Of a stretch of 64,000 nucleotides of DNA, positions 4,113-63,793 are shown in pieces; position 1 is the first letter of the stretch, and each line of letters starts with the position of its first letter. The position numbers and the translations under genes are program-made. Origin of the DNA: Calditrichota bacterium (GTDB lineage Bacteria > CLD3); contig QQUF01000022.1 of assembly GCA_008501735.1 (NCBI GenBank), positions 35,034 through 99,033 of the forward strand. Reading direction: 5' to 3'. The notes below the pieces were generated by a model. That model was not told the DNA's origin and searched no databases. It saw only the letters and a list, made by a program, of their open reading frames with translations.

Positions 4113-5635
4113 ATTTTCCTGATTTTTTTAAACGCTTTTGGTAAAAAGTCTATTAAATCGGAGGCTGTAAGAGCAAATTCTGTCTTGTTTTTTGTTGCCA
4201 AATCACCCGATAAGCCGTGAAGGAAAACTCCATTTATTGCTGCTTCAAGAGGTTTTTTTGTTTGCGAAAGTAGAGAAGCAATGATTCCCGAAAGAACATC
4301 TCCTGAACCAGCAGTTGCCATTCCCGAATTTCCGGTCGAATTTACAAAAGCTTCACTTCCACAAAAAGTTACTGTTGGAGCACCTTTTAACACTAAAACA
4401 ACCGAATGTTTTTTGGAAAAATCTTTTCCAACATCAAGAATATTTTCACAAATTTCTGTTTTCGTAAGTTTTGTCAAACGAGCAAATTCACCCAAGTGAG
4501 GAGTCAAAATTGCATTTCTTGGTAGGAGTGAAAAGTCAGATTTCTCTGCTAAAAGATTTAAAGCATCTGCGTCAAGAACACACAATTTTTCACTTCTTTT
4601 CAACTCTGCAAGTATTTTTAAGAAGAGGTTTCTCGTAGCTTTTGAAGCTCCCAAACCAGGACCAAAAAGACAAACGTCAGACCAATTAATTTTTTCTTTA
4701 AAGTCAGTTAAAGTTTTTGTGGAAAATTCGAAAGGGAAAGTCATTACTTCTGTTAGATTTTCTTCGAAAATGGTATTTAAGTTTTGCGGAACGGCAAGAG
4801 TTGTCAAACCTGCTCCTGCAACTAAAGTTACTTTTGAAGCAAGAATTCCTGCTCCTGTCATTCCTTCTGAGCCAGCCCAAACAAAGACTTTTCCAACACT
4901 ATTTTTGTAATCGGTTTTTTTACGTTTTGGCAAGATTTTGCAGATAGCTTCTTTTGTTACAAGTTTTGCTTCAAACCCTACTTTTTCTTCTGCTTCAGGT
5001 AGGAAACCAATATCAACCGCAGTAATTTTACCTGTAAACTCTTGTGCAGAATTTATGTAAAGCCCCGTTTTTATTTTTCCAAAAGTTACTGTAAAATCAG
5101 CTTTTACAACCTCTCCTTTCGCCATTCCATTAGCTCCATTCAGACCAGAAGGAATATCAACGGCAAAAACTTTCGTTTGAAACGAATTTACCTTTTTCAC
5201 TGCTTGAGAAGCAATTCCTCTCAATTCACCTCTAAAACCTGTTCCGTAAAGAGCATCAACTACGAAGTCTGGATTTTCCAAAATTTCTAAGTCATTTTTT
5301 GAGATTTCAGAAAGAACTTTGCCACCAGCTTTTTTGTAGAGTTCAAGCTTTTTTTTCGGAAGCCCCTGAATTTCATCTTCCGAATTTAAGAGTAGAACCA
5401 AGACATTCGCTTTGTAGTTTTGTAGCCAACGAGCAACCACAAATCCGTCACCTCCGTTGTTACCCTTTCCACAAAAAACGTAAACAGTTTTATTTTCTAA
5501 ATTTTTAAATTTTGATTTGATTAAATCGAAAATGGATTTGGCAGCAATTTCCATTAAAACTGAATCTTCGATTCCGAGTTCAATTGTCAGTTTATCAATT
5601 TTTTGAGATTGCTTAGGAGTGATTAATTCAAGCAT
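4109..5635 (-). CDS. nnr: Bifunctional NAD(P)H-hydrate epimerase / ADP-dependent NAD(P)H-hydrate dehydratase
   Basis: 508 residues, the normal length of the fused repair enzyme. The N-terminal YjeF_N domain (about 1-215) has FCGKGNNGGDGFVVARWL, the phosphate loop of the epimerase, and VDIPSGLNGANG. The C-terminal ribokinase-like dehydratase domain (about 235-500) has GSEGMTGAGILA, LTPHLGEFARL, VLKGAPTVT and STGNSGMATAGSGDVLSGII, the ATP/ADP-binding and catalytic Asp region. The enzyme repairs hydrated NADH and NADPH: the epimerase interconverts R and S forms and the dehydratase restores the S form. Start ATG 5635. The vanZ gene is translationally coupled downstream. Confidence 0.95.
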   Translation of the reverse strand: MLELITPKQSQKIDKLTIELGIEDSVLMEIAAKSIFDLIKSKFKNLENKTVYVFCGKGNNGGDGFVVARWLQNYKANVLVLLLNSEDEIQGLPKKKLELYKKAGGKVLSEISKNDLEILENPDFVVDALYGTGFRGELRGIASQAVKKVNSFQTKVFAVDIPSGLNGANGMAKGEVVKADFTVTFGKIKTGLYINSAQEFTGKITAVDIGFLPEAEEKVGFEAKLVTKEAICKILPKRKKTDYKNSVGKVFVWAGSEGMTGAGILASKVTLVAGAGLTTLAVPQNLNTIFEENLTEVMTFPFEFSTKTLTDFKEKINWSDVCLFGPGLGASKATRNLFLKILAELKRSEKLCVLDADALNLLAEKSDFSLLPRNAILTPHLGEFARLTKLTKTEICENILDVGKDFSKKHSVVLVLKGAPTVTFCGSEAFVNSTGNSGMATAGSGDVLSGIIASLLSQTKKPLEAAINGVFLHGLSGDLATKNKTEFALTASDLIDFLPKAFKKIRKI

Positions 5636-27274: not shown

Positions 27275-29275
27275 TTAAACTATTGGCTCAGGGTCTATGC
27301 TTTCGTCTAAATTTGGTGGTAAGTTGTGAAAAGTAACTCTGTTTCGACCAGCTCTTTTGGAAGCATAAAGCGCTTTGTCAGCAACACGAATAAAGTCTTT
27401 TGCATTTTCCATTACCTTTTTGTCGAACTCTGCAACTCCAATGCTTATTGTTACTTTATATTCATCGCCGTTGAAAGAAATTACTTTTTCCTCAATTTGA
27501 CTACGAATTAATTCAGCTTTTTTAACGGCTTGTTCGGTATTTGTATTAATTAATAAAATCGAAAACTCTTCTCCTCCGTAACGTCCAATTCCGTCAATTG
27601 AACGAATCATTTTTTCCAAAGTCTGTGCCACTTGACGTAAAACCTCGTCACCAACAAGATGTCCATAATTATCATTAAAACTCTTGAAGTGGTCAATATC
27701 AATCATCAACAACTGCATTTTCAAATCATATCTGTCAGACCTTTGGATTTCAAGTGCAAGTTTTTCGTCAAAAGCTCTTCTGTTTGGAATCCGAGTCAAA
27801 CCGTCTGTGCTTGCTAATTGTTTTAACTCCGAGTAGTAACTTGCTCTATCCAAAGCTCCGCCCAAAGTTACAGTTAATTTTTTTAGAATTTCTTTATTCT
27901 CTTTGTTGAAGAAAAAAGACCTCTTACTTTCGATTGTGATGATTCCTGGCTTTTCAATTGTGTCAAAAGGAACTGCAAGAAATGACCTGTAACCGCTAGA
28001 AGTTTTTTCTTGATTTGTATAACGTGGATGAAAATTTATCTCTCTTGTTCCATCGGCAGCTTCAATAAAATCACTGTCAATTTTTGAGTTCTTTCTTAAA
28101 TCTGCAACAACTAAACCTTCGTTTTTCCTCAAAACATAACCGTTCAATCCTTCGCTGATTTTGAAAACCGTTTTAACAGGAAAAATTTCCTCATCTTTGA
28201 ATTCGGAACTTGAGTAGTCTAGGTAAGCAATTTCAGCTTCCTCTGAATTAGGTTTTGAAAATGCAATTGCAAGTCTGTCATAGTTAAAGACTTTTTTCAC
28301 AATTTCTAAGAATTTGAAAATTACATCTTTTTCTTTAAACTGACTACTTAAGTCAAGACTGACTTCGTAAAGTCCTGAGTAAAATAAAAATTTTCGGTTA
28401 GTGTCTTTTAGCTCTTCAAAGTTGATGATTAATTTTTCGATGACTTTTGCGAAGGTCTCAAATAGGTGCTTTTCTTTTTCAGAAAACTTATTCTCAGACT
28501 CAGAGTCAGCAACTAAAACTCCGATAATTTCTTTGTCAATTACTAATGGGACACCGAGAAATGAGCCTGTAATTTCTTCTTCTGAATAATAGTTAATTGC
28601 AGGAGAATTTTCGGGAATTGTGTTTTCCATTAAAGTTTCTTCACGTTTTACAACTGTTCCTGGAAGATTGCCCCCAAGCGGAATTCGCGAAGAAAGATGG
28701 AAATTTTGTGAATCGGAAAAACCTGCTTTTAAAAATAAAGTGTGGTCTTGCAAATTCAGAAGGAAAACACCAACTGTTTTAGCGTCCAAAACATTTTTTA
28801 CTTTTTGTAGCAAATCATTTAAAAGCAACTCAAAATTTTCTTCAAACCTTTGAAATTGCTCATCAAATTTTTCTTCTGAAATTGATTCCCAATTAAAATC
28901 ATTGGAATTCTTTGCTGTTTTTTCTTCAAAACTAAGTTGTGAGAATTCATTTGCTCGGTTGTTGTCTAAAATTGTTTCTTTAGGTTCAGAATCTTTTTCG
29001 ATTGGTTCTGGAGGAGTAAAATTTATCGGAGCTTCGATTTTTGCTTTTCTTCTATCAAAAGATTCATCTCGCAAAGTCTCGTAAGATTCTGGCTCACTTT
29101 TTTTCTGATTCAAATAAAGGATTCCAACTGCAACCAAACCTAAAATGCCAATGAGTCTAACTGCTTGAACAAGACTTTCATTTTCTTCGATTCCGATTGG
29201 GAAAACCGAATAAAGTAAAACTAGAATTAGTAAAATGTATAAAATTTCAAGAAACTGAAAAGAGCCTTTGCTCAT
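27275..29275 (-). CDS. Membrane-anchored diguanylate cyclase with GAF domains
   Basis: 666 residues from ATG 29275, with AGAAG before it. Two N-terminal membrane helices (FLEILYILLILVLLYS and VRLIGILGLVAVGILYL) are followed by a charged linker. Two GAF domains follow at about 155-300 (TVGVFLLNLQDHTLFLKAGF, GSFLGVPLVIDKEIIGVLVA) and about 315-480 (SGYRSFLAVPFDTIEKPGII). The GGDEF domain from about 490 has TDGLTRIPNRRAFDEKL, MIDIDHFKSFNDNYGHLVGD and the active GGEEF near residue 570. The product inhibition I-site RSID lies five residues before it. It should make c-di-GMP in response to a small ligand and be feedback-inhibited. No EAL or PilZ protein was seen nearby. Confidence 0.93.
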   Translation of the reverse strand: MSKGSFQFLEILYILLILVLLYSVFPIGIEENESLVQAVRLIGILGLVAVGILYLNQKKSEPESYETLRDESFDRRKAKIEAPINFTPPEPIEKDSEPKETILDNNRANEFSQLSFEEKTAKNSNDFNWESISEEKFDEQFQRFEENFELLLNDLLQKVKNVLDAKTVGVFLLNLQDHTLFLKAGFSDSQNFHLSSRIPLGGNLPGTVVKREETLMENTIPENSPAINYYSEEEITGSFLGVPLVIDKEIIGVLVADSESENKFSEKEKHLFETFAKVIEKLIINFEELKDTNRKFLFYSGLYEVSLDLSSQFKEKDVIFKFLEIVKKVFNYDRLAIAFSKPNSEEAEIAYLDYSSSEFKDEEIFPVKTVFKISEGLNGYVLRKNEGLVVADLRKNSKIDSDFIEAADGTREINFHPRYTNQEKTSSGYRSFLAVPFDTIEKPGIITIESKRSFFFNKENKEILKKLTVTLGGALDRASYYSELKQLASTDGLTRIPNRRAFDEKLALEIQRSDRYDLKMQLLMIDIDHFKSFNDNYGHLVGDEVLRQVAQTLEKMIRSIDGIGRYGGEEFSILLINTNTEQAVKKAELIRSQIEEKVISFNGDEYKVTISIGVAEFDKKVMENAKDFIRVADKALYASKRAGRNRVTFHNLPPNLDESIDPEPIV

Positions 29276-29567
29276 TGAACTTCTCAAGTTAGTAGTGATG
29301 GCTTAATTTTGTAGATTTCTTTTTGCGAAAAATCAATTTAGTAAATTTTGAAAACTCTGACAACTACCTAAATGAAAAACTAAGATTTTTCTCAACTTAG
29401 TGTCCTTCACAAAATTGAAAAGTTGGTCTAAATTTTTGTCAAACCTCTTCCTAAACTCTTCTTAGATTTCAACAATTCACTTTGAAAAATAGCTTTGAAA
29501 TATTAATTTCACGGCTCGCTAAATCAAGAAAAATTAAACTCAAAGAATAAATCACAAAGGCACAAAA
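29276..29567. other. Divergent promoter region, no gene seen
   Basis: About 290 AT-rich bases lie between the divergent diguanylate cyclase and M1 peptidase genes. TAGCTTTG near 29489 resembles a Bacteroidota -7 element, but no matching -33 TTTG was found at the right spacing. No repeat or RNA structure was recognised. Confidence 0.4.
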
Positions 29568-47622: not shown

Positions 47623-49092
47623 ATGCTCAAGTTTAGTCTTTTAACAATCCTATTGGCTTTTCTGCCAAACTTTGCTTTCTCGCAAATCATTTACCAAAAT
47701 GTTAGTGCAACTAATTTACCTCTAAATTCTTTGAGTGGAAATTCAATGGATGCAAAACCTGCTGATGTTGACGGAGACGGAGATTTAGATATTTTTGTAG
47801 CTTGTGAATTTTGCCCAAACAAACTTCTTATCAATGACGGAAACGGAGTTTTTACAAATGAATCGGTTTCAAGACTTCCTCAAGTTGTGAATGATTCGGA
47901 AGACATCGCTGTTGCAGATTTTGACGGAGACAACGACATTGACGTTTTCTTTGTCTCGGAAGACGATAGTTTGAATGAGTTTTACTTGAACGATGGAAAC
48001 GGGTTTTTCACAAATGCAAACAATTTGATTCCTGTAAACGGTGAATCGAATGCAACAATTGCAGTTGACGTTGAAGACGACGGAGATTTTGACATTCTTA
48101 TCGGAAACAACGGACAAAATGTAATTTTGATAAATGACGGAAGTGGAAATTTTACAAACGAAACTTCGCTTCGTTTACCACCAAACACAAACATTACTCA
48201 AGACTTGGAATTCGGCGATGTTGACGGAGACGGCGACAAGGATTTGCTCGAAGGAAACGAAAATGGCAACCGACTTTTGCTAAATGACGGAAACGGAGTT
48301 TTTACGGAAACAACAAGTCAACTTGCTTTCACTCCAAACGGAGAAGAAACTCGTGAAGCTGAATTCGGAGACGTTGACGGCGACAATGATCTTGACATCT
48401 TTTTTGCAAACGTAACTTTTCTGCAAGGCAAACCTTCACAAAATCGACTTTTGTTGAACGACGGAAACGGATTCTTCACAGACGAAACAATCATAAACTT
48501 ACCAATTGAAGGCAAAAATACAGTTGACGGCGATTTTGTGGACGTTGATTCAGACGGCGATTTGGATTTGGTGCTTTCAAATTCATTTAACGCAAGTTTT
48601 CAGATTTTGGAAAACGACGGAAACGGAGATTTTATAGAAGCAACTAACACTTTTATTCCAAGCCAACAACCAACAGGGGATTTGATTGACGCAGAATTTG
48701 CAGACTTTAACGGAGACGGACTAACAGACCTTTACTTGTGTGGTTTTGGGCAAAGCGATTACCTTTACTTTGCAGTTGATTTGGCAAATTCAGTTGAAGA
48801 AATCGGCACTCCCAAAACATTCTCACTTTCACAAAACTACCCGAACCCTTTTAACCCTTCAACTTTCATAAATTACGAATTAGAAATTACGAATTACGAA
48901 TTGGTAAAATTGGTAATTTTTAATATTCGTGGTGAAAAGGTGAAAGAGTTTGTTTTGCCTGAGACGAAAGGTTCTGTTGTCTGGAATGGAAAAAATGAAT
49001 TTGGAAATCAAGTTGCGAGCGGAATTTATTTTTATGGAATTGAGAGTTCAAAAGGGTCTTCTGAACTTCGGAAAATGGTTTTGTTGAAGTGA
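47623..49092 (+). CDS. FG-GAP/VCBS-repeat secreted protein with T9SS-type sorting domain
   Basis: 489 residues. The Sec signal MLKFSLLTILLAFLPNFAFS is cleaved before QIIY. Seven or eight repeats follow, with the calcium-binding motif DVDGDGDLDIF and the companion LLLNDGNGVFT. This is an integrin-like FG-GAP/VCBS propeller. The C-terminus has NYPNPFNPSTFINY, GEKVKEFVLPETKGSVVWNG and GIYFYGIES, ending in MVLLK, the type A sorting domain. It is probably a calcium-stabilised surface or adhesion protein. An AT-rich repeat sequence encodes the NYELEITNYELVKL stretch inside the sorting domain. Confidence 0.9.
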   Translation: MLKFSLLTILLAFLPNFAFSQIIYQNVSATNLPLNSLSGNSMDAKPADVDGDGDLDIFVACEFCPNKLLINDGNGVFTNESVSRLPQVVNDSEDIAVADFDGDNDIDVFFVSEDDSLNEFYLNDGNGFFTNANNLIPVNGESNATIAVDVEDDGDFDILIGNNGQNVILINDGSGNFTNETSLRLPPNTNITQDLEFGDVDGDGDKDLLEGNENGNRLLLNDGNGVFTETTSQLAFTPNGEETREAEFGDVDGDNDLDIFFANVTFLQGKPSQNRLLLNDGNGFFTDETIINLPIEGKNTVDGDFVDVDSDGDLDLVLSNSFNASFQILENDGNGDFIEATNTFIPSQQPTGDLIDAEFADFNGDGLTDLYLCGFGQSDYLYFAVDLANSVEEIGTPKTFSLSQNYPNPFNPSTFINYELEITNYELVKLVIFNIRGEKVKEFVLPETKGSVVWNGKNEFGNQVASGIYFYGIESSKGSSELRKMVLLK

Positions 49093-49139: not shown

Positions 49140-50243
49140 TTATAGTTTCTTTTCCTGCTCACAAACTTCACCGAACCAAAGAATTATTTCTTTGAGTGCG
49201 AAAATTAGTGAATTGACTGTATTTGTGGTTGGTTGGTAAAAGAAACTTAGTAAAGGTGAATGCGAGCTAGAATCATCATGTGGACCGAACTCGCTTGCTA
49301 GTCCTTGTATTGTTTTGGCAAAAGTTGTTATAAGTTCACCTGATTTTATCTTTTTTTCTTGTGAAAGCCAACTAATGAAAGGTCTAACTTTTACATTAAT
49401 TTTATCTCTTTCATAAAGAAAAATTTTCTCCTTTTCTTTGGAACGATTATTTATCCTATTAAAAGAATTAGGAGCTTTTGTTATTTCAGCAATCTTACTA
49501 AGAATTTTTTGTGAAAGATTTCTAATCAGATCCAAGTTTTCTATTATTTCTACATTTTTATCTTTATTTCGTAAGGTTTTAAAAAATACTTCTTTTGCAT
49601 TTTTATTTAGAAAATTTTCTAAGGTTTCTAAATACTTTTTATTTTCCCATAAAACATCAAGTTCTTCTAAGTTATTGATTATTTCTTTTAGGTTTTCCTT
49701 TTCCTTTGTATCCGTTTTATCAATTATATTCCCTTTCTTAAAGTTGTCAAAACTACCCTCAATCAAAGGTTTAATCACTTCAAGATTTTTTATCTCATCT
49801 GAAGAATTTCCAGTTAAAAAATAGAATCTATCTTTAGCATTTATTTGCTTACTCAAAATGGCAATCTTTAATAAATAATCTCCCTCACGATTTTCATATC
49901 CGTTTTCGGAAATGTCTCTTTGGGCGATTCTGTCCAAATCTTCTAAATTGTATTTCCTCACCTTACCTGATAAATTTCTATCAATAATCAATAAAGAATA
50001 TTTTTGCCCTTTAATTTTAATTTTTCTAAGTGCTTCTGGGAAGTCATTCTCAAATTCTATGAATTGGGACTTATTTAAAATTTGTTTTATTTCTTCAGCA
50101 TTAACTGGACGATTTATTTCTTCTTTTTTAGATTTTAACTCTTTTAATTCTTTTGAAATTGTCTCTTCTAAACGTTCTTCAAATAAATTTTCTACTCTTT
50201 CAAGTACATCGGATACTTCATCTTCTACATAAAAAATTTTCAT
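49140..50243 (-). CDS. Divergent receiver-domain protein with uncharacterised helical C-terminus
   Basis: 367 residues. Residues 1-175 follow a receiver fold: acidic pair in FYVEDE (E7, D8), phosphoacceptor D88 in LLIIDRNLSG, T144 in YFLTGN and lysine 169/170 in FDNFKKGN. A charged helical insert of about 50 residues follows the first strand, and another loop (98-122) follows the phosphoacceptor. Residues 180-367 are helical and not recognised; near the end, ASEFGPHDDSS...PTTNTVNSLIFALKEIILWF faintly recalls HEPN-like abortive-infection C-terminal domains, which is speculation. It overlaps the kinase gene by ATGA, so it is its likely partner. It belongs to the minus-strand cassette that starts at 54316. 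Confidence 0.65.
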   Translation of the reverse strand: MKIFYVEDEVSDVLERVENLFEERLEETISKELKELKSKKEEINRPVNAEEIKQILNKSQFIEFENDFPEALRKIKIKGQKYSLLIIDRNLSGKVRKYNLEDLDRIAQRDISENGYENREGDYLLKIAILSKQINAKDRFYFLTGNSSDEIKNLEVIKPLIEGSFDNFKKGNIIDKTDTKEKENLKEIINNLEELDVLWENKKYLETLENFLNKNAKEVFFKTLRNKDKNVEIIENLDLIRNLSQKILSKIAEITKAPNSFNRINNRSKEKEKIFLYERDKINVKVRPFISWLSQEKKIKSGELITTFAKTIQGLASEFGPHDDSSSHSPLLSFFYQPTTNTVNSLIFALKEIILWFGEVCEQEKKL

Positions 50244-51886
50244 TTAACTTTCCATAAATTTTGAAAAACTATACCAACTGAATAAATTTGGTTTTCCTTT
50301 TTTATTTTAGGAGCTGTTTTAAGGAGGTTAGCAAAACTTCTAATAATTTCCAAACCTAAACCTGTTGACTTTGTTTTCTGATTCTCTTTAAAAGAGTTTT
50401 CTACCTCAAAAGTAATTTCATTAGAATTTTGTAAAACAGAAATTTTTATACTTCTGTTCTCTTTTGGAAGAAAAGATGAATATTTAACTGCGTTTAAAAG
50501 TAACTCTTGAAATAAAATTGTGAATTTGATTCTTGAACCTTTTGCATTCCCAATAACCATTTCTTTTGCTTCGTCTAAATTTAGGTTTAACCTAAAAAAG
50601 TATTTTTGAAGAAAACCTATTAACTTCTGTAAATCTTCGGTTTGTGAGATATTAACCCATAATTCTTTTGCCTCGATAAAAATTTCTTCTGTTGGAAAAT
50701 AATTTTCCACAAAATTAGAGAAGTATTTTCCGTCAAACATATTTCCGACCGAATATTTTAACGCATCTAAAATAACTTGCTCAAAATTCATACCTTCATC
50801 ATCAATATTTTTAGCATCATAAAGAAAATCTTCAAATGAATTATGGTGAGATAGATTCATTGCATTTACAACTTCTCTAATAAGATTTGTTCCCTTCAAT
50901 GCATTTTCTATCGCAAATGGATTATAAGTTTGCTTTCTCTTCATATTTTCTAATGGGTCAATAACAGAAGCAATTAAATTTTTGATTGAATGTGAAAGGT
51001 TAGACATTATTCTGTCTCGTTCTTGCTGAACCTTTATTTCTTGAATGTCGTCACCAATAGAATTACCCTCATATTCGTTATGACAAACATATTTAATTTT
51101 TTCTAAGTCTTTGATTGCCAAATCGTAATCATTTAAAGTAAGATATATTTTACTACGACTTTTAAGCATTTCTGCTAACTCAAAGTCCTCACTAAACCTA
51201 TTTCCCCCGTACAATTCAATAGATTTAGAAATATCTTTTAAAGCATTTTGATATTTGTTAAGACTTTTAAAACATAGACCTCTTTTGTAATATGATTCAT
51301 AATTTTCTGGTTCTAGTTCAATAGCTTGAGTAAAATCTTCGATGGCAAGTTCTATTTTATCTAACCAATAATAACATAAACCTCTTTTGTAAAACAGAAT
51401 TGCATTTTCTGGTTTAATGGCAATTGCTTTATCAAGATATTCACAGGCTTCCTTATATTTATTCATTTTTATTAAGCACTCACTAACAAGTTGCAGAGCT
51501 TGAATATCCTCGGGGACTAATTCAATCACTTTAGAAAAATCATTTGTAGCTTCACCATAATTTTCTTCTTTCATAAAACACTTTCCTCTAAAAGACAAAG
51601 CAATTTGATTTCCAGAATCTAATCCAATCGCTTTAGTGAAATGTTCCTTTGCTTTTTTGAGGTTGACAAGGTCGTATGATTTAATTTCTCCTGTTGAAGG
51701 TTCTACCATTCTGTTTTCAATTTCTTTTATTTCTCGTTCAATCTCCTCAGATTTGCTCTCGTCACTGTTCCATCGAATTTTTTTAAGTTCTTTGAGTTCG
51801 TTTTCCGAATGGTCAATTTTAGAATAGCTTTTAAGCCCAGATATGGTATGTTCTCTTGCCTTTTGGTTTATTTTCGAGTCAATCAT
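50240..51886 (-). CDS. Soluble TPR-repeat histidine kinase-like protein
   Basis: 548 residues with no membrane segment. Five or six TPRs cover about 75-265 (AILFYKRGLCYYWLDKIELA, ESYYKRGLCFKSLNKYQNAL). A phosphotransfer-like helix follows with MSNLSHSIKNLIASVIDPLE; His299 is the candidate phosphorylation site. The GHKL ATPase domain has N-box FQELLLNAVKYS (Asn465) and G-box STGLGLEIIRSFA; the D-box is weak. The TPR sensor suggests a protein or RNA-protein input from the cytoplasm. ATG 51886 has AGGT six bases before it and a sigma-54-like promoter candidate 35-50 bases upstream. The receiver gene downstream overlaps by ATGA. Confidence 0.8.
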   Translation of the reverse strand: MIDSKINQKAREHTISGLKSYSKIDHSENELKELKKIRWNSDESKSEEIEREIKEIENRMVEPSTGEIKSYDLVNLKKAKEHFTKAIGLDSGNQIALSFRGKCFMKEENYGEATNDFSKVIELVPEDIQALQLVSECLIKMNKYKEACEYLDKAIAIKPENAILFYKRGLCYYWLDKIELAIEDFTQAIELEPENYESYYKRGLCFKSLNKYQNALKDISKSIELYGGNRFSEDFELAEMLKSRSKIYLTLNDYDLAIKDLEKIKYVCHNEYEGNSIGDDIQEIKVQQERDRIMSNLSHSIKNLIASVIDPLENMKRKQTYNPFAIENALKGTNLIREVVNAMNLSHHNSFEDFLYDAKNIDDEGMNFEQVILDALKYSVGNMFDGKYFSNFVENYFPTEEIFIEAKELWVNISQTEDLQKLIGFLQKYFFRLNLNLDEAKEMVIGNAKGSRIKFTILFQELLLNAVKYSSFLPKENRSIKISVLQNSNEITFEVENSFKENQKTKSTGLGLEIIRSFANLLKTAPKIKKENQIYSVGIVFQNLWKVK

Positions 51887-51920
51887 CTTTTACCTAATTT
51901 TTTAAGTTTCCAAACAAACT

Positions 51921-51937
51921 TACACACTTTGTGCCAA
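51921..51937 (-). promoter_or_regulatory. Candidate sigma-54 promoter for the TPR kinase/receiver genes
   Basis: On the minus strand, TTGGCAC (-24, 51937-51931) is followed by AAAGT and GTGTA (-12, 51925-51921). The -24 half is a perfect match to TTGGCAC. The -12 half matches TTGCA at three of five bases, having GT where GC is expected. The spacing is exact. A start near 51909 would leave about 22 bases of leader with a ribosome site before ATG 51886. The gene next upstream encodes a sigma-54 activator. Confidence 0.45.
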
Positions 51938-52020
51938 AAACAAAAATCTCTTTCTAAAAGTCTAAAATGAAACTCTGCCAAATCGGAAGTAAAAATATTT
52001 ACGGATAAAAGTAAATATTT

Positions 52021-53574
52021 TTAGTCTCTCCATTTTCTAAGGTGTTCACTTCCTTCTTTGAAAATTTCATACTCTTCGTCTGTCATTGTCGGATATTTTA
52101 ACAACTTTTCAATCAAGGTATCATTTTCTTTCACTTTCTTCAATCTTGCTCGAAAAGTATGTGGTGCAAGTCCGAGAAGTTTTGCGGCTTGAGTTGCGTT
52201 TCCGTTGGCTTTTTTCAAAGCCGCTTCGTAGTATTTTTTCGGAATGTCAAAATCAAAGTTGATTCCTTCGTCAGGAATTAGAACTTCCGTTTGAGGTTTG
52301 CCAATTTCAATGATGTTCAGACTTTCGGCACCAATCTCATTTTCAGGAAAAACGAATGCGGATTCGACAGCATTTTTTAGTTGCCTGACATTTCCTCGCC
52401 ACTGATTTTGTAGGATTTTGGTTTTTGCAGAATTTGAGAAAATTTTTGATTTTTGGTATTTTTGATTAAGCTCGTCCAAAATCTTTTCGGCAATCAAAAT
52501 TTTGTCGTTTGTTCTTTCTCGGAGTGGTGGAATGAAAATTTTTCTCACAACAAGCCTGTAAAACAAATCCTCTCTGAAAGTCCCTTCTTTCACTAATTTT
52601 TCAATATTTTTGTTTGTCGCCGAAATGACTCTGACGTTTACTTTTTCCTCAAAACTTGAGCCAACAGGAAAAAATGTTCCGTCTTGCAAAACTCGTAAAA
52701 GTTTGACTTGAACCGACAAAGGCAAGTCGGCGATTTCGTCAAGAAAAATTGTGCCGTTGTCCGCAAGTTTGAACTTTCCGTCTTTGTCCGAAGTTGCACC
52801 TGTGAAAGAGCCTTTTTTGTGTCCGAAAAATTCACTTTCAAAAAGTTCAAGTGGAATCGCTCCACAATTTACTTTGACCAAGTTTCCGTCTTTTCGTGAG
52901 CTGTTTTTGTGAATTGCTTCTGCGACAAGTTCTTTACCTGTTCCGCTTTCGCCTTGAATAAAAATTGGAATTTCCGAATCGGCAAAAACTGAAATTTCTT
53001 TTTTCAAGTTTAGAATTTCCGCACTTTCGCCAATGATTTCTTCGTAGGCTAAATTTATATTTTTCTTAAGAAATTCATTTTCACGTTTGAACTTTGTGAG
53101 CTCAGTTTTTAGAGTAGAAACTTTTCTAATTTTCGGAAAATCGTCAAGCTCAAAAGTTACTTCCGAAATTCCCGATTCCCTTGAAACTTGAATTAATTTT
53201 GCATCTGTTACTTTGCCTTGTTTGAGAAAAAGCCAACAAGCGTGCATTGTTGGAGTTCCCGAAGTAACGGAAATTGTAAATTTTGCTTTTGGGTTTTCGG
53301 ATTGAATTTCAGAAAGTGCTTTGTGCATCGCAGGGTAAACGATGTTGTAATTTGTTGGGTCAGCCGAAAGACAATCTTTGTAAAAGACTTTTAGTTTTGG
53401 GTAGGTATTTCGGCAAAAAGCCAAAATTTCAGAGGCTGGTTTTAAATATTTTTCGTGGTTGTAGAGAAGGTAAAGTTTGTCGAATTTTTGATTTTCCAAA
53501 ACGGTGAGAATCGCACCCACTTTTTCATTCGGGAAACAATCGTTGTTACCAATAAAAGAAATTAAAATCTTCAT
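52021..53574 (-). CDS. RtcR-like sigma-54 activator with N-terminal CARF domain
   Basis: 517 residues. Residues 1-145 form a CARF-like Rossmann domain: KILISFIGNNDCFPN, VGAILTVLENQKFDKLYLLY, and the ligand-loop motif TISVTSGTPTMHACWLFLKQ (SGTPTMH at 105-111), as in RtcR. The AAA+ domain follows with Walker A GESGTGKE (208-215), sigma-54 contact loop GSFTGA (255-260, a variant of GAFTGA), Walker B GTIFLDE (274-280) and FREDLFYRL. The Fis-type helix-turn-helix is at about 455-485 (ANGNATQAAKLLGLAPHTFR). In RtcR the N-domain blocks the ATPase until an RNA-derived ligand binds. No rtcBA genes are nearby; instead a HEPN/MNT pair precedes it by 15 bases and a kinase/receiver pair follows. Confidence 0.88.
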   Translation of the reverse strand: MKILISFIGNNDCFPNEKVGAILTVLENQKFDKLYLLYNHEKYLKPASEILAFCRNTYPKLKVFYKDCLSADPTNYNIVYPAMHKALSEIQSENPKAKFTISVTSGTPTMHACWLFLKQGKVTDAKLIQVSRESGISEVTFELDDFPKIRKVSTLKTELTKFKRENEFLKKNINLAYEEIIGESAEILNLKKEISVFADSEIPIFIQGESGTGKELVAEAIHKNSSRKDGNLVKVNCGAIPLELFESEFFGHKKGSFTGATSDKDGKFKLADNGTIFLDEIADLPLSVQVKLLRVLQDGTFFPVGSSFEEKVNVRVISATNKNIEKLVKEGTFREDLFYRLVVRKIFIPPLRERTNDKILIAEKILDELNQKYQKSKIFSNSAKTKILQNQWRGNVRQLKNAVESAFVFPENEIGAESLNIIEIGKPQTEVLIPDEGINFDFDIPKKYYEAALKKANGNATQAAKLLGLAPHTFRARLKKVKENDTLIEKLLKYPTMTDEEYEIFKEGSEHLRKWRD

Positions 53575-53589
53575 TTATTTTTACCAATT

Positions 53590-53982
53590 TCATTTTAAAT
53601 CAGCTGAGTCTAAAATATCTCTAAAAATAGGAATCAACTTTTGCAAAGCCTTTACAGCTTGACGAGCTTCTTCACGAGTTGCCGATTCTCCTGGATAACG
53701 GAAAGCTACAGCGAAAGGATTTAGGTAAGCGAATAATTCTTTGTGAATTTCTAATTCAGGAACAACAGGTAAGCATAACTCCATCAAAGCCAATAAGTCG
53801 TGAACTTTCCCAAATCGAATATTTTCCTTTTGCAAAATTGCTTTTAAATATTTTTCTACAGATTGTTGAGCATGAAATCCAGCCGAGTCATAATTTGGAA
53901 ACTTCCTTGCTCTGAATTCTCTTAAAGCACTGTGGTAATCACCTTCGGCTTTCTCAATCCACTCTTTTATCAGTTCGTTCAT
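53590..53982 (-). CDS. HEPN-domain protein, probable toxin half of an MNT/HEPN pair
   Basis: 130 residues. The PF05168-type HEPN pattern is present: WIEKAEGDYHSALREF, DSAGFHAQQSVEKYLKAIL and FGKVHDLLALM. The RNase motif Rx4H is intact as R56-FGKV-H61, so catalytic activity is possible. The HxY tyrosine that is AMPylated in HepT proteins is absent (Leu at that place), so control by its partner must differ from the Shewanella HepT/MntA model. It overlaps the MNT gene by 29 bases and lies 15 bases before the CARF activator gene. Confidence 0.88.
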   Translation of the reverse strand: MNELIKEWIEKAEGDYHSALREFRARKFPNYDSAGFHAQQSVEKYLKAILQKENIRFGKVHDLLALMELCLPVVPELEIHKELFAYLNPFAVAFRYPGESATREEARQAVKALQKLIPIFRDILDSADLK

Positions 53983-54316
53983 AAAGTATTTTACCGAAAT
54001 CGAAAATTTCTTTTAGAAAAAAATCACCTTCTTTTAAACGTTTTTCAATTTGTTTTGGAGTTTTGACAAGAATGTCTAAAGGAAACGAATGTTCTAGAAA
54101 TAAAGCAATTTTAGAACTTAATTTTAAAGCAGATTCTTCTGTTTCAATAACAACTAATAAATCCACGTCGCTTTCTGCTGTTGGATTTCCGTTGGCGTAA
54201 GAACCAAACAAAATAATTTTTTCAGGCTCAAATCTTTCTGCGATTCGGATTGCCTGCATTTTTATTTCACTGAATTTCGCACAACGTTTGCCGATTATTG
54301 AAACTGTGTTTTTCAT
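53954..54316 (-). CDS. Minimal nucleotidyltransferase (MNT), probable antitoxin half
   Basis: 120 residues. The polymerase-beta-like site is complete: LFGSYANGNPTAESDVDLLV gives G38-S39 and the metal aspartates D50 and D52, and D81 in FPLDILVKT is the third. MNT proteins neutralise HEPN toxins, in studied cases by transferring AMP from ATP to the toxin. It is the first gene of the minus-strand cassette; a hairpin separates it from the di-iron protein gene upstream. Its length is normal for the family. Confidence 0.9.
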   Translation of the reverse strand: MKNTVSIIGKRCAKFSEIKMQAIRIAERFEPEKIILFGSYANGNPTAESDVDLLVVIETEESALKLSSKIALFLEHSFPLDILVKTPKQIEKRLKEGDFFLKEIFDFGKILYERTDKRVD

Positions 54317-55279: not shown

Positions 55280-56626
55280 TTGCAGAATTTAGAATCAAAT
55301 CTTGATTTGAGCTTTTTACTTGAAACCGAATTTTCTAATCCTGACCAAGTTTTGATGGTAAAAAAAGGTGAAGTTTTACTAAAGGAAAACCAAGTCAACG
55401 ACAAACTTTATTTCATTTTGGAAGGCTCAATTACATCTTTTGTTTACGATTCGGAAGGCAAAAAATACAAGTCTTTTTCGGCTCAGAAAAATATGTTTGT
55501 TGGAGTTTACAGCTTCTTTTCAGGCTCAAGTAAAAGCCTCACAGAAGTCGTTACAAACGAAGATTCAAAATTCGCTTTCATCACTTACAGTCAGTTCCAA
55601 AATTCAATAAAAAGTAGTAAGTATCTTTTGGGGAAATTCATTTCAGTGATTCTCAAAGAACTGATTTTCAGACATCGCCAACTCCAAAAAATTATAATTG
55701 AAAAAGAGCAGACTTTCCAAAAATTACTCGAAACTGAAAAAATGGCTTCTTTGGGTCAAATGGCTGCAGGAATTGCTCACGAACTCAACAACTCAATTGC
55801 AGTTTTAAAAAACAACAACGAATGGCTTAGCAAAATTATCGGTGAAATTCTTAAAGAAAACAATTCCGAGAATCATCATTTTTTTACCGAAGGTTTTGAA
55901 AAAGGACGAACTTTGACGAGTAGCGAAGCAAAATCAAAAGCTAAAGATTTTGCAAAGAAATATTCGATTTCAAAAGACTTAGCACGCAAATTTGTTGAAG
56001 CAGGTTTGACAGAAAATGACTTTGCAAAGATCAGAAACAACATCGAAAAAGAAGTTCTTGCAAAGCACAAAAATTGGGAAATCGGAACAGCCTTTTATGA
56101 CATTTCTGTTGCTTCAAAACAAGCGGCTCACGTTGTTCAGTCAGTCAAAACTTTGGGTGCGAAAAGTTCTTTTCGGGAAGCAAACCAAGACGTAAATGAA
56201 AGTATTCACAATGCTTTGGCACTTTTGCAAAGTAGCCTTAGAGAAATCAATTTGAAGCTTGAGTTAAAACCTCTGAATTCGATAATTGCAAACAAAGGCG
56301 AGTTGGTTCAGATTTGGACAAATTTGGTCAAAAATGCTTGTGAAAGTCTTAGAAACTCTGGAATCCAAAATCCAGAAATTATAATTTTTTCAGAACAGCA
56401 AAAGACTTCTATATCGGTAAAAATTCAAGACAACGGAAATGGAATTCCGAAAGAAATGTTGAATCAAATTTTTAGACCAAATGTTACTACTAAAATTGGC
56501 GGACTTTCTTTTGGTTTAGGTTTGGGGCTGACAATCGTTGAAAGATTAGTAAATTCTTACAACGGTAGAATTTCTGTTCAGAGTGTTAGAGGTGAAACAA
56601 TTTTTGAAATTAAACTTCCAAATTAG
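55280..56626 (+). CDS. Histidine kinase with N-terminal cyclic-nucleotide-binding-like domain
   Basis: 448 residues from TTG 55280 with AGGA seven bases before. Residues 15-130 are a cNMP-binding-like beta roll (GEVLLKENQVNDKLYFILEG), but the phosphate cassette with Arg is not seen, so the ligand may not be a cyclic nucleotide. The HisKA box is MAAGIAHELNNSIAVLKNNN with His167. About 100 helical residues (190-285) separate this helix from the next dimerisation helix, an unusual insertion. ATPase marks are the N-box around WTNLVKNACESL, DNGNGIPKEM and SFGLGLGLTIVERL. It lies nine bases upstream of a receiver gene, its probable partner. Confidence 0.88.
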   Translation: MQNLESNLDLSFLLETEFSNPDQVLMVKKGEVLLKENQVNDKLYFILEGSITSFVYDSEGKKYKSFSAQKNMFVGVYSFFSGSSKSLTEVVTNEDSKFAFITYSQFQNSIKSSKYLLGKFISVILKELIFRHRQLQKIIIEKEQTFQKLLETEKMASLGQMAAGIAHELNNSIAVLKNNNEWLSKIIGEILKENNSENHHFFTEGFEKGRTLTSSEAKSKAKDFAKKYSISKDLARKFVEAGLTENDFAKIRNNIEKEVLAKHKNWEIGTAFYDISVASKQAAHVVQSVKTLGAKSSFREANQDVNESIHNALALLQSSLREINLKLELKPLNSIIANKGELVQIWTNLVKNACESLRNSGIQNPEIIIFSEQQKTSISVKIQDNGNGIPKEMLNQIFRPNVTTKIGGLSFGLGLGLTIVERLVNSYNGRISVQSVRGETIFEIKLPN

Positions 56627-56635
56627 AGTGAAAAA

Positions 56636-57118
56636 ATGGAAAAGTTAAACATCATTTGTGTTGATGACCAAAGCGAAGTTCTTGCGACTTTACGCAAAAA
56701 CCTTGAGTTTTTTAGTGAATTTTTTGAGATAACTGACTGTGAATCTGCGGAAGAGGCTTGGGAAGAAATTGAAGAAATCGATTCGGAAGGTGATTTTTTG
56801 GCTCTGATAGTTTGTGACCACGTAATGCCGAGCAAAAACGGAGTTGAATTTTTGACTGAATTTTATGAAGACTCAAGATTTCCTTTTACAAAAAAAATGC
56901 TACTAACAGGTTTGGCAACTCACGAAGACACAATTTCGGCAATTAACAATGCCAAAATTGATTGTTACATCGAGAAGCCTTGGGAAAGTGCCGAATTGAT
57001 AAAAACAATTCAGACTTTAGTAACAGAATTTATTTTGGAAAAAGGTTTGGAATACCAAGAAATGCTTCCGATTCTTGACCAACAAGTCGTTTACAGAAAA
57101 CTGAGTGGTAATTCTTAA
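56636..57118 (+). CDS. Single-domain response regulator
   Basis: 160 residues. The receiver fold has acidic pair D10/D11 (IICVDDQSEV), phosphoacceptor D61 in LIVCDHVMPSKNG, T91 in MLLTGLA and K114 in CYIEKPWESAE. About 40 residues follow, helical and with no recognised output domain (EFILEKGLEYQEMLPILDQQ). The C(Y)IEKPW end is typical of receivers that precede HD-GYP or kinase outputs, but none is attached. It is likely a phospho-signal to protein partners. The stop shares TTAA with the convergent cutC. Confidence 0.9.
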   Translation: MEKLNIICVDDQSEVLATLRKNLEFFSEFFEITDCESAEEAWEEIEEIDSEGDFLALIVCDHVMPSKNGVEFLTEFYEDSRFPFTKKMLLTGLATHEDTISAINNAKIDCYIEKPWESAELIKTIQTLVTEFILEKGLEYQEMLPILDQQVVYRKLSGNS

Positions 57119-62353: not shown

Positions 62354-63688
62354 TTAGTAATTATTTTTACCGGTTAGTTCGTTGAGTTTCGCTAATGCTT
62401 TTTGTGCACCAAACTCAGAAATTACGAGGTCTGCTTTTGCTCTGATTAATGCAACTTGTGTGTCTCTGAATTCAAGCTGAGTTCCCGAACCAACAGAGTA
62501 ACGCTCTTTTGCAAGCTTCAAATCTTCTTCTGCTGACTCAATTCTTTCACGATTGATTGTGATAACTTGAATTGTCGTTTGTAAGTCTTCGTAAGTTCTC
62601 AAAAGGTCAAGAGACAAATTTTGTAAAGTTCTTTCAAAATCTCTTTTTGCAATAATTTTTGAGATTTCTGCTTTTTGCAAATTTGCACTTGTTTGGAATC
62701 CATTAAAAAGATTCATCGAAAGAGTTGCACTTCCTGTGAAAGACCAGTTTCTGTCAAAACTTCCGTAAACTTCGCCCAAATCCGAATTGCTTCTTCCGTA
62801 GCTAAGACTTCCTGTTAAGTTTGGAAAGTATCCGCTTTTCGCAACCTCTCTTGATTTATCAGCTTGTTTAATGTCTAACTCTTTTGAGTTTAAACTGAAG
62901 TTATTGTTTTTAAAATTTTGGATTAATTCTTCAAAATTGATTTCAGGAATGACTTTTGGAAAATCTTCACTAACTGCAAGGGGCTCAAAAGGGTCTTTTC
63001 CAAGATTGATGTTCAAGTTTGCTCTTGAAACTTTAACATTTTCTTTCTGCTCAAGAAGTCTAATTTTGTCAGTTCCGAGTGAAACTTTAGACTGCAAAAA
63101 AGAAGCTTTAGTTTGAGTTCCGACTTTGTAAAGACTTTCTGCACGTTTGAGTTGTTCTTCACTAAGTTTTACATTTTCAGAATAGACTTTTTCGAGTTCT
63201 TGTGCTTGTAAAAGATTGAGGTAAGAGTCTGTGACACTTGTTACAATTTGGGATTTTGTGTCTTTTAGTTCTAATTCAGATTGTTCAACTGAAAGGCTGC
63301 TTCTTTGATAAGATTTTAAAGTTGCGTAGTTCCAAGTTTTTGAAAGCGAAGCCGAAAGAGAATGATTTTTTGTTGTAAAACCGTCTGATTCGATTGGAAC
63401 TAAAACAGTTGTTGCAGTTCCTGTAGAGTCAGTAACGTCAATTTCTCTTTCAGTAATTGTTTTACCGAATTTTGTTTTACTTGAAGTGGCACTAACATTG
63501 AGTTCAGGAATGAAACCAGCACGAGAAATTGTTTGGTCTTCTTGACTACTTTTTAATGATTCTTGAGAGATTAAAATATTTTTATTGTTTTGAAGAGCGA
63601 TTTGGATACAATTTTCAAGAGTAAGTTCTTGAGCGAAAGTTAATGAAGTTGAAAAAATTAGAAGTGAAGGAATAATAAATTTTTTCAT
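62354..63688 (-). CDS. TolC-family outer-membrane efflux protein
   Basis: 444 residues from ATG 63688; a TTG three codons upstream is the alternative. The signal peptide KKFIIPSLLIFSTSLTFAQ is cleaved before ELTL. Two OEP repeats are visible, beginning LENCIQIALQNNKNILISQE and, after about 200 residues, the second helical hairpin. Typical details are LNLLQAQELEKVYSENVKLS, AESLYKVGTQTKASFLQSKV, LSMNLFNGFQ and ERYSVGSGTQLEFRDTQVAL. It forms the outer-membrane channel for the adaptor, ATPase and two permeases encoded downstream. It is the first gene of this five-gene export operon, so the promoter should lie in 63689-63790. Confidence 0.93.
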   Translation of the reverse strand: MKKFIIPSLLIFSTSLTFAQELTLENCIQIALQNNKNILISQESLKSSQEDQTISRAGFIPELNVSATSSKTKFGKTITEREIDVTDSTGTATTVLVPIESDGFTTKNHSLSASLSKTWNYATLKSYQRSSLSVEQSELELKDTKSQIVTSVTDSYLNLLQAQELEKVYSENVKLSEEQLKRAESLYKVGTQTKASFLQSKVSLGTDKIRLLEQKENVKVSRANLNINLGKDPFEPLAVSEDFPKVIPEINFEELIQNFKNNNFSLNSKELDIKQADKSREVAKSGYFPNLTGSLSYGRSNSDLGEVYGSFDRNWSFTGSATLSMNLFNGFQTSANLQKAEISKIIAKRDFERTLQNLSLDLLRTYEDLQTTIQVITINRERIESAEEDLKLAKERYSVGSGTQLEFRDTQVALIRAKADLVISEFGAQKALAKLNELTGKNNY

Positions 63689-63793
63689 TAGAGTCAATTC
63701 TCCGATAATTTTGATTTTGAAAGATTAAGAACGGCACAATTTCGCGTAAGTTACAAAATTTGTTAGAAAAATTTTGTTGCTAAGAGTTAGGCA

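Follow-up and report, generated by a model that had tools for sequence, protein, structure and literature searches.

RtcR of E. coli and Salmonella is a CARF-AAA+-HTH activator of the neighbouring sigma-54 promoter of rtcBA (PMC7790460; PMC9650030), and rtcR is transcribed away from rtcBA (PMC7790460). CARF-NtrC-like proteins adjoin restriction-modification systems, and sigma-54 activation of the downstream genes was predicted for them (Makarova 2014, PMC4012209); no promoter layout was found in the consulted parts of that account. In CoCoNuT superoperons an RtcR homologue stands at the 5' end, and the downstream genes were predicted, in the consulted part of the source, to be activated via an upstream activating sequence (PMC11090510).

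The window, which is the whole stretch of 64,000 nucleotides analysed here, holds an activator of this kind, followed on the same strand by genes for a TPR-kinase and a receiver-like protein. Like RtcR it is a CARF-AAA+-HTH protein encoded beside a sigma-54 promoter, whereas in the window the promoter lies behind the activator gene and shares its strand, RNA repair is not the cargo, and RtcB had no match in the genome. By its PADLOC match (RtcR_PspF2) it is the same kind of protein as the CARF-NtrC-like activators in the consulted parts of the Makarova account; the cargo there is restriction genes and here a TPR-kinase/receiver-like pair, and the candidate enhancer of the window differs from that of the relatives. 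As in CoCoNuT superoperons the activator gene heads the unit, while no CoCoNuT genes were recognised in the window and neither promoter nor enhancer is located in the consulted part of the CoCoNuT account. The type of regulation is a known one, with a new definition at the DNA level and, in the window, a new cargo. A term search of the open-licence literature gave no description of a conserved promoter with paired palindromes behind the activator gene; as far as the consulted sources go, the conserved layout appears new, the general idea going back to a prediction of 2014.

The stretch 51937-51921 is quite likely the sigma-54 promoter of the kinase/receiver-like pair, with the upstream CARF activator as its dedicated enhancer-binding protein. 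Local control of the pair by the activator had been suggested by the first-pass annotation, and the suggestion gained support from the presence of rpoN, the fit to the sigma-54 motif of the genome itself and a promoter position kept throughout the family.

On the minus strand, a -24 element TTTTTGGCAC (51940-51931) is separated by a 5-nt spacer from a -12 element GTGTA (51925-51921), so that 51937-51921 reads TTGGCACAAAGTGTGTA and the promoter as a whole (51921..51941, minus strand) reads GTTTTTGGCACAAAGTGTGTA. It was assigned from its sequence, a score of 20.2 with a matrix derived from the genome, and the position kept in the family. The motif and its -24/-12 spacing were verified where the first-pass annotation had put them, in the gap of 134 bp (51887-52020) between the activator and kinase genes, both on the minus strand. 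The promoter lies 85 bp past the activator stop on the same strand, that is, at the 3' end of the activator gene, and 50 nt from the kinase ATG. With a +1 at about 51910, as deduced from the position of the -12 element, the predicted transcript leader (51887..51910, minus strand) would be about 24 nt long, close to the 22 bases proposed earlier, and the ribosome site proposed with it was found as AGG (51895-51893), six bases ahead of the kinase ATG.

The GG at -24/-25 of TGGCAY is present in the window site. Its -12 half is GTGT against TTGC, with TG kept, T for C at -12 and G for T at -15; the earlier description of a perfect -24 half and an imperfect -12 half (GT for GC) holds for the T at -12 and missed the second departure at -15. 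It had also been stated that no other TGGCAC of the window had a -12 half at the right spacing, which was wrong, since two exist, TGGCACagactTTGG at 27630(-) inside an ORF (27275-29287) and TGGCACtaacaTTGA at 63487(+) inside another (62354-63697).

Scanning the window with the plain consensus gave 46 matches at two or fewer mismatches, against 36.4 expected. A consensus scan of the window by itself was rejected as evidence because it did not exceed chance, and because it was uninformative, a sigma-54 matrix was learned from 549 upstream regions of the same genome with the window site held out. The sample for the matrix was 1.08 Mb, or 26% of the 4.14-Mb genome (G+C 34.4% in the first 0.68 Mb of sampled genome), and was partly picked around activator genes and motif matches, which may raise the proportion of real sites but not the chance rate. 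The motif of this genome reads ttTTGGCAY-N5-TTGN; at -12 the 11 training sites show A, G or C. The held-out window site fits it, scoring 20.2 with the smoothed matrix, inside the leave-one-out range of the training sites (13.6-22.8), and this was the best matrix score on both strands of the window. No coding sequence scored 20.2 or more in 0.87 Mb, and only 0.02 sites at that score would be expected from Markov sequence over all 549 upstream regions. The best sites of the genome lie 42-116 nt from the start codon, for which 50 nt in the window is typical. The sigma-54 element is confirmed as real and as more than a chance match.

The C at -12 varies in this genome, which makes the imperfect -12 half a lesser objection than it first seemed, and G at -15 also occurs in the homologous promoters of L225, L198, L219, L222 and L249; yet none of the 11 training sites has T at -12 or G at -15, so the doubt over GT for GC was softened and not removed. 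Upstream TTGGCAY sites that lack TTG numbered 8 of 22, against about 7 by chance as estimated from the coding rate. With 11 training sites, odd bases at -15 and -12 and TTG-less sites at chance level, the argument needs position and relatives, and the case rests only on the flanks of the -24 element, the position and the comparison with relatives. In contig C38 of the same genome, near-identical sigma-54-like sites TGGCACGTTA(C/G)TTGA recur at 4383, 9980 and 12479, at intervals of 2.5-5.6 kb, and may precede tandem paralogues.

The two -12 mismatches, together with the near-chance rate of -24-only sites upstream of genes, would fit an improbable alternative, in which TTGGCAC occurs by chance or is a promoter in decay, and the pair is transcribed by read-through from the MNT-HEPN-activator operon or from a housekeeping promoter. 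All five genes from the nucleotidyltransferase to the receiver-like protein lie on one strand, as read-through would have it, and a Bacteroidota-type -7 box TAAGTTTG (51922-51915), seen by eye, overlaps the -12 element. The overall matrix score is nevertheless far above chance and the position is kept in relatives, no sigma-70 consensus promoter was found in the gap, and a 13-bp hairpin stands between activator and kinase in the path of read-through. TAnnTTTG occurred upstream of genes in this genome 77 times in sense and 64 times in antisense, and a Bacteroidota-type promoter was rejected for want of a clear enrichment.

For a genuine sigma-54 promoter the machinery is at hand. The first-pass annotation had named rpoN as a check, and one match was present in the genome (PF04552, E 8e-56). 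The activator (52021..53574, minus strand; 517 aa) is a CARF-AAA+(sigma-54)-HTH protein of RtcR_PspF2 type by Pfam (Sigma54_activat 3.5e-67, RtcR 4.7e-8, HTH_8 4e-7) and by PADLOC, where PDLC01995 (RtcR_PspF2) matched over the full length at 4e-137 and RtcR at 1e-62. Its loop for contact with sigma-54 reads GSFTGA, which is GAFTGA with A changed to S and is identical in the relative L073, and its HTH recognition region is PHTFRARLK, against for example PQAVSKFLK in relatives.

Upstream of it, the gene of a HEPN protein (53590..53982, minus strand; Pfam HEPN 2e-23) lies 15 bp away and is overlapped by that of an MNT nucleotidyltransferase (53954..54316, minus strand; Pfam NTP_transf_2 8.5e-12), whose match to NCBIfam MntA (1.4e-9) falls under the cut-off of that model. 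With a gap of 15 bp, MNT, HEPN and activator are probably one operon, and MNT matches also lie close to the activator in L180, L218 and L234. The genome gave no match to a Cas10 palm, for which type III CRISPR was rejected as the source of the ligand; with RtcB missing as well, the ligand is not transferable from either rtc or type III CRISPR.

About 38 activator-like matches were counted in the genome, including that of the window. Many of them belong to reading frames roughly 1,700 aa long, and one that was tested (L083:5512-10569, plus strand) is a fusion of Ser/Thr protein kinase, AAA, TPR, sigma-54 AAA+ and HTH parts. The 37 or so others could serve the promoter, and it is very improbable, though the enhancer motif of the relatives is absent from the window, that a genuine sigma-54 promoter at this place is served by one of them and not by the adjacent CARF activator. 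In most relatives a promoter stands at the 3' end of the activator gene whatever the cargo, which ties it to the CARF activator, and from these relatives we strongly infer the pairing of this regulator with this promoter.

The relatives were collected by searching genome_contigs with a CARF alignment, which gave 78 loci from many phyla; a 3-row alignment was used for the scan, a 7-row one being too diverse. The 64 loci in which the activator reading frame was long enough and ended in a stop were counted. The activators of the relatives and of the window belong to the same family (PDLC01995). A first hint came from four whole-genome loci, one of which, L074, covers the contig stretch also represented by L174.

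A sigma-54 site with at most one mismatch was found 29-134 bp past the activator stop on the same strand in 38 of the 64, mostly at 96-120 bp, against 0.33 expected from the surrounding rate (Poisson P about 1e-63, ignoring kinship; the loci span many phyla in the tree). The same 29-134 bin of the 64 loci held no antisense match and no match to the reversed pattern, and when two mismatches were allowed nine further loci had a site, 74-110 bp past the stop. In L073 and L079 the activator gene runs into a Cas10-type operon and, by eye, has no gap promoter; as the activators there abut or adjoin such csm-like operons, some members of the family may answer to cyclic oligoadenylate. Behind the activator of the verrucomicrobial L203, L204 and L212 no sigma-54 site was recognisable, and an AbiEii-type protein is among the following genes of L204.

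Five plasmid relatives that were not used to find the pattern (Polaromonas, Pseudomonas, Azotobacter, Vitreoscilla and Rhodoferax) served as a held-out set, from which H6 (Thermocaproicibacter) was excluded, being a CARF match beside a type III-A locus that is annotated as a hypothetical protein and not as a sigma-54 activator. Sites with up to two mismatches were present in all five, at -18 to +166 counted from the activator stop (0.115 expected each), and sites with up to one in three of the five (0.015 expected each). In the tree the window protein groups on a long branch with the plasmid relatives, L078 and L079. L078 and the plasmid relatives all have a sigma-54-like site at the 3' end of the gene, while L079 is the neighbour whose activator abuts a Cas10-type operon.

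Comparison of the gap across relatives, which the first-pass annotation had proposed, could be carried out for the position of the site, which is kept family-wide, and not for the element, which is not alignable in close relatives, since the search gave no other locus carrying this kinase/receiver-like pair. Nine genomes of the same phylum held no CARF domain and no receiver-like protein. The conserved position among relatives is the strongest evidence for the promoter of the window.

Most relatives also carry two palindromes TTYAACC-N2-GGTTRAA, centred about 85 and 106 bp upstream of TGGCAC and 21 bp apart. Their distance to the promoter is fixed, while the first centre, measured against the stop codon, ranges between -7 and about +37. 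Keeping the promoter distance and not the stop-codon distance is the look expected of an enhancer bound by an activator, and the tandem palindromes are probably the enhancer of these activators. The conserved promoter and paired palindromes define a regulatory cassette that is open to testing and spread over many phyla, by which cargo could be recognised from DNA sequence and whose promoter could serve as a reporter for finding the signal sensed by CARF domains.

The tandem motif was found neither in the window nor in L186, L078, L167, L226 or the plasmid relatives. The window has instead a perfect 13-bp palindrome, TAAAAATATTTAC-N8-GTAAATATTTTTA (51990..52023, minus strand), with its centre 70.5 bp upstream of TGGCAC, which is 15-35 bp closer to the promoter than the palindromes of relatives. 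It is a candidate for the enhancer bound by the activator or for a weak A+T terminator.

That the palindrome (52023-51990) is only an intrinsic terminator, the enhancer lying inside the 3' end of the activator gene, is a serious possibility put somewhat below an even chance, and it would fit the preferred promoter-activator pairing too. The palindrome folds at -9.9 kcal/mol (z = -4.0) and hairpins are enriched at gene ends in this genome (82 of 403 ends, 41 of 506 starts). In L246-L249, moreover, the promoter lies at -18 to +8 of the activator stop; as it touches the stop codon, an enhancer there must lie in the 3' end of the activator gene. Against a terminator, 12 of the 13 pairs are A-T, unlike the gene-end hairpins of this genome, which are G+C-cored (only 2 of 82 stems with at most one GC pair), the palindrome was not flagged as a terminator, and its core is unique in the 4.14 Mb.

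Behind the promoter, relatives mostly carry type I restriction genes, in many cases preceded by a small SNase-like gene (a name given by eye; one product tested had no Pfam match), and 17 of 34 cargo proteins tested by Pfam match HSDR_N. Others are vWA proteins, AAA_15/AAA_21 ATPases, AbiEii-type, dynamin-like and Cas10-type (Csm1_B) proteins. In many phyla, then, the CARF switch and its predicted promoter stand ahead of anti-phage genes, mostly restriction enzymes. Signalling cargo behind a CARF activator, as in the window, is found in the vWA-PP2C-protein kinase cassettes of L245 (Polaromonas) and L249 (Rhodoferax), where it is a protein kinase and a PP2C Ser/Thr phosphatase and not a histidine-kinase-like and a receiver-like protein.

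The pair in the window is a new kind of cargo. The first target gene (50240..51886, minus strand) encodes a histidine-kinase-like TPR protein of 548 aa with a C-terminal GHKL/HATPase domain (Pfam TPR_1 1e-29, HATPase_c_5 1.3e-5), and for its C-terminal half neither 386 genomes (E up to 1e-6) nor the plasmid collection gave a relative. The start of the second (49140..50243, minus strand) overlaps the kinase stop, and its product of 367 aa is called receiver-like from motifs seen by eye (VEDE, LLIIDRN and LTGNSS). This protein had no Pfam, PADLOC or NCBIfam match, no convincing PDB match and no match in the plasmid collection, and AlphaFold on the single sequence, without an alignment, gave an uninformative model (pLDDT 37). 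A weak match to it in G088 was rejected as spurious, lying by eye in a HAD-type phosphatase. For the pair as such, no convincing relative was found in the 386 genomes, the plasmid collection or the 78 loci.

For the ligand, the enhancer used in this genome and the function of the cargo we infer the following course. The activator would be produced from the MNT-HEPN-activator operon, and its CARF domain would bind a signal, probably an RNA-derived or nucleotide ligand, upon which the AAA+ ring assembles. The HTH would grip upstream DNA, perhaps the palindrome, and the ring would open the sigma-54 RNA polymerase complex poised on the promoter, so that the TPR-kinase and receiver-like genes are switched on. 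A wider reading, which is tentative and rather unlikely, takes MNT, HEPN, CARF activator, promoter, TPR-kinase and receiver-like protein as an undescribed defence or RNA-damage response, in which HEPN would cut RNA, CARF would sense the ends and a phosphorelay would be the effector arm.

Two other features lie near the cassette on the plus strand. One is a second signalling pair (55280-57118), a cNMP-binding histidine kinase followed by a receiver protein, and another is an FG-GAP repeat protein (47623-49092) that weakly matches C-terminal sorting domains of type IX secretion.
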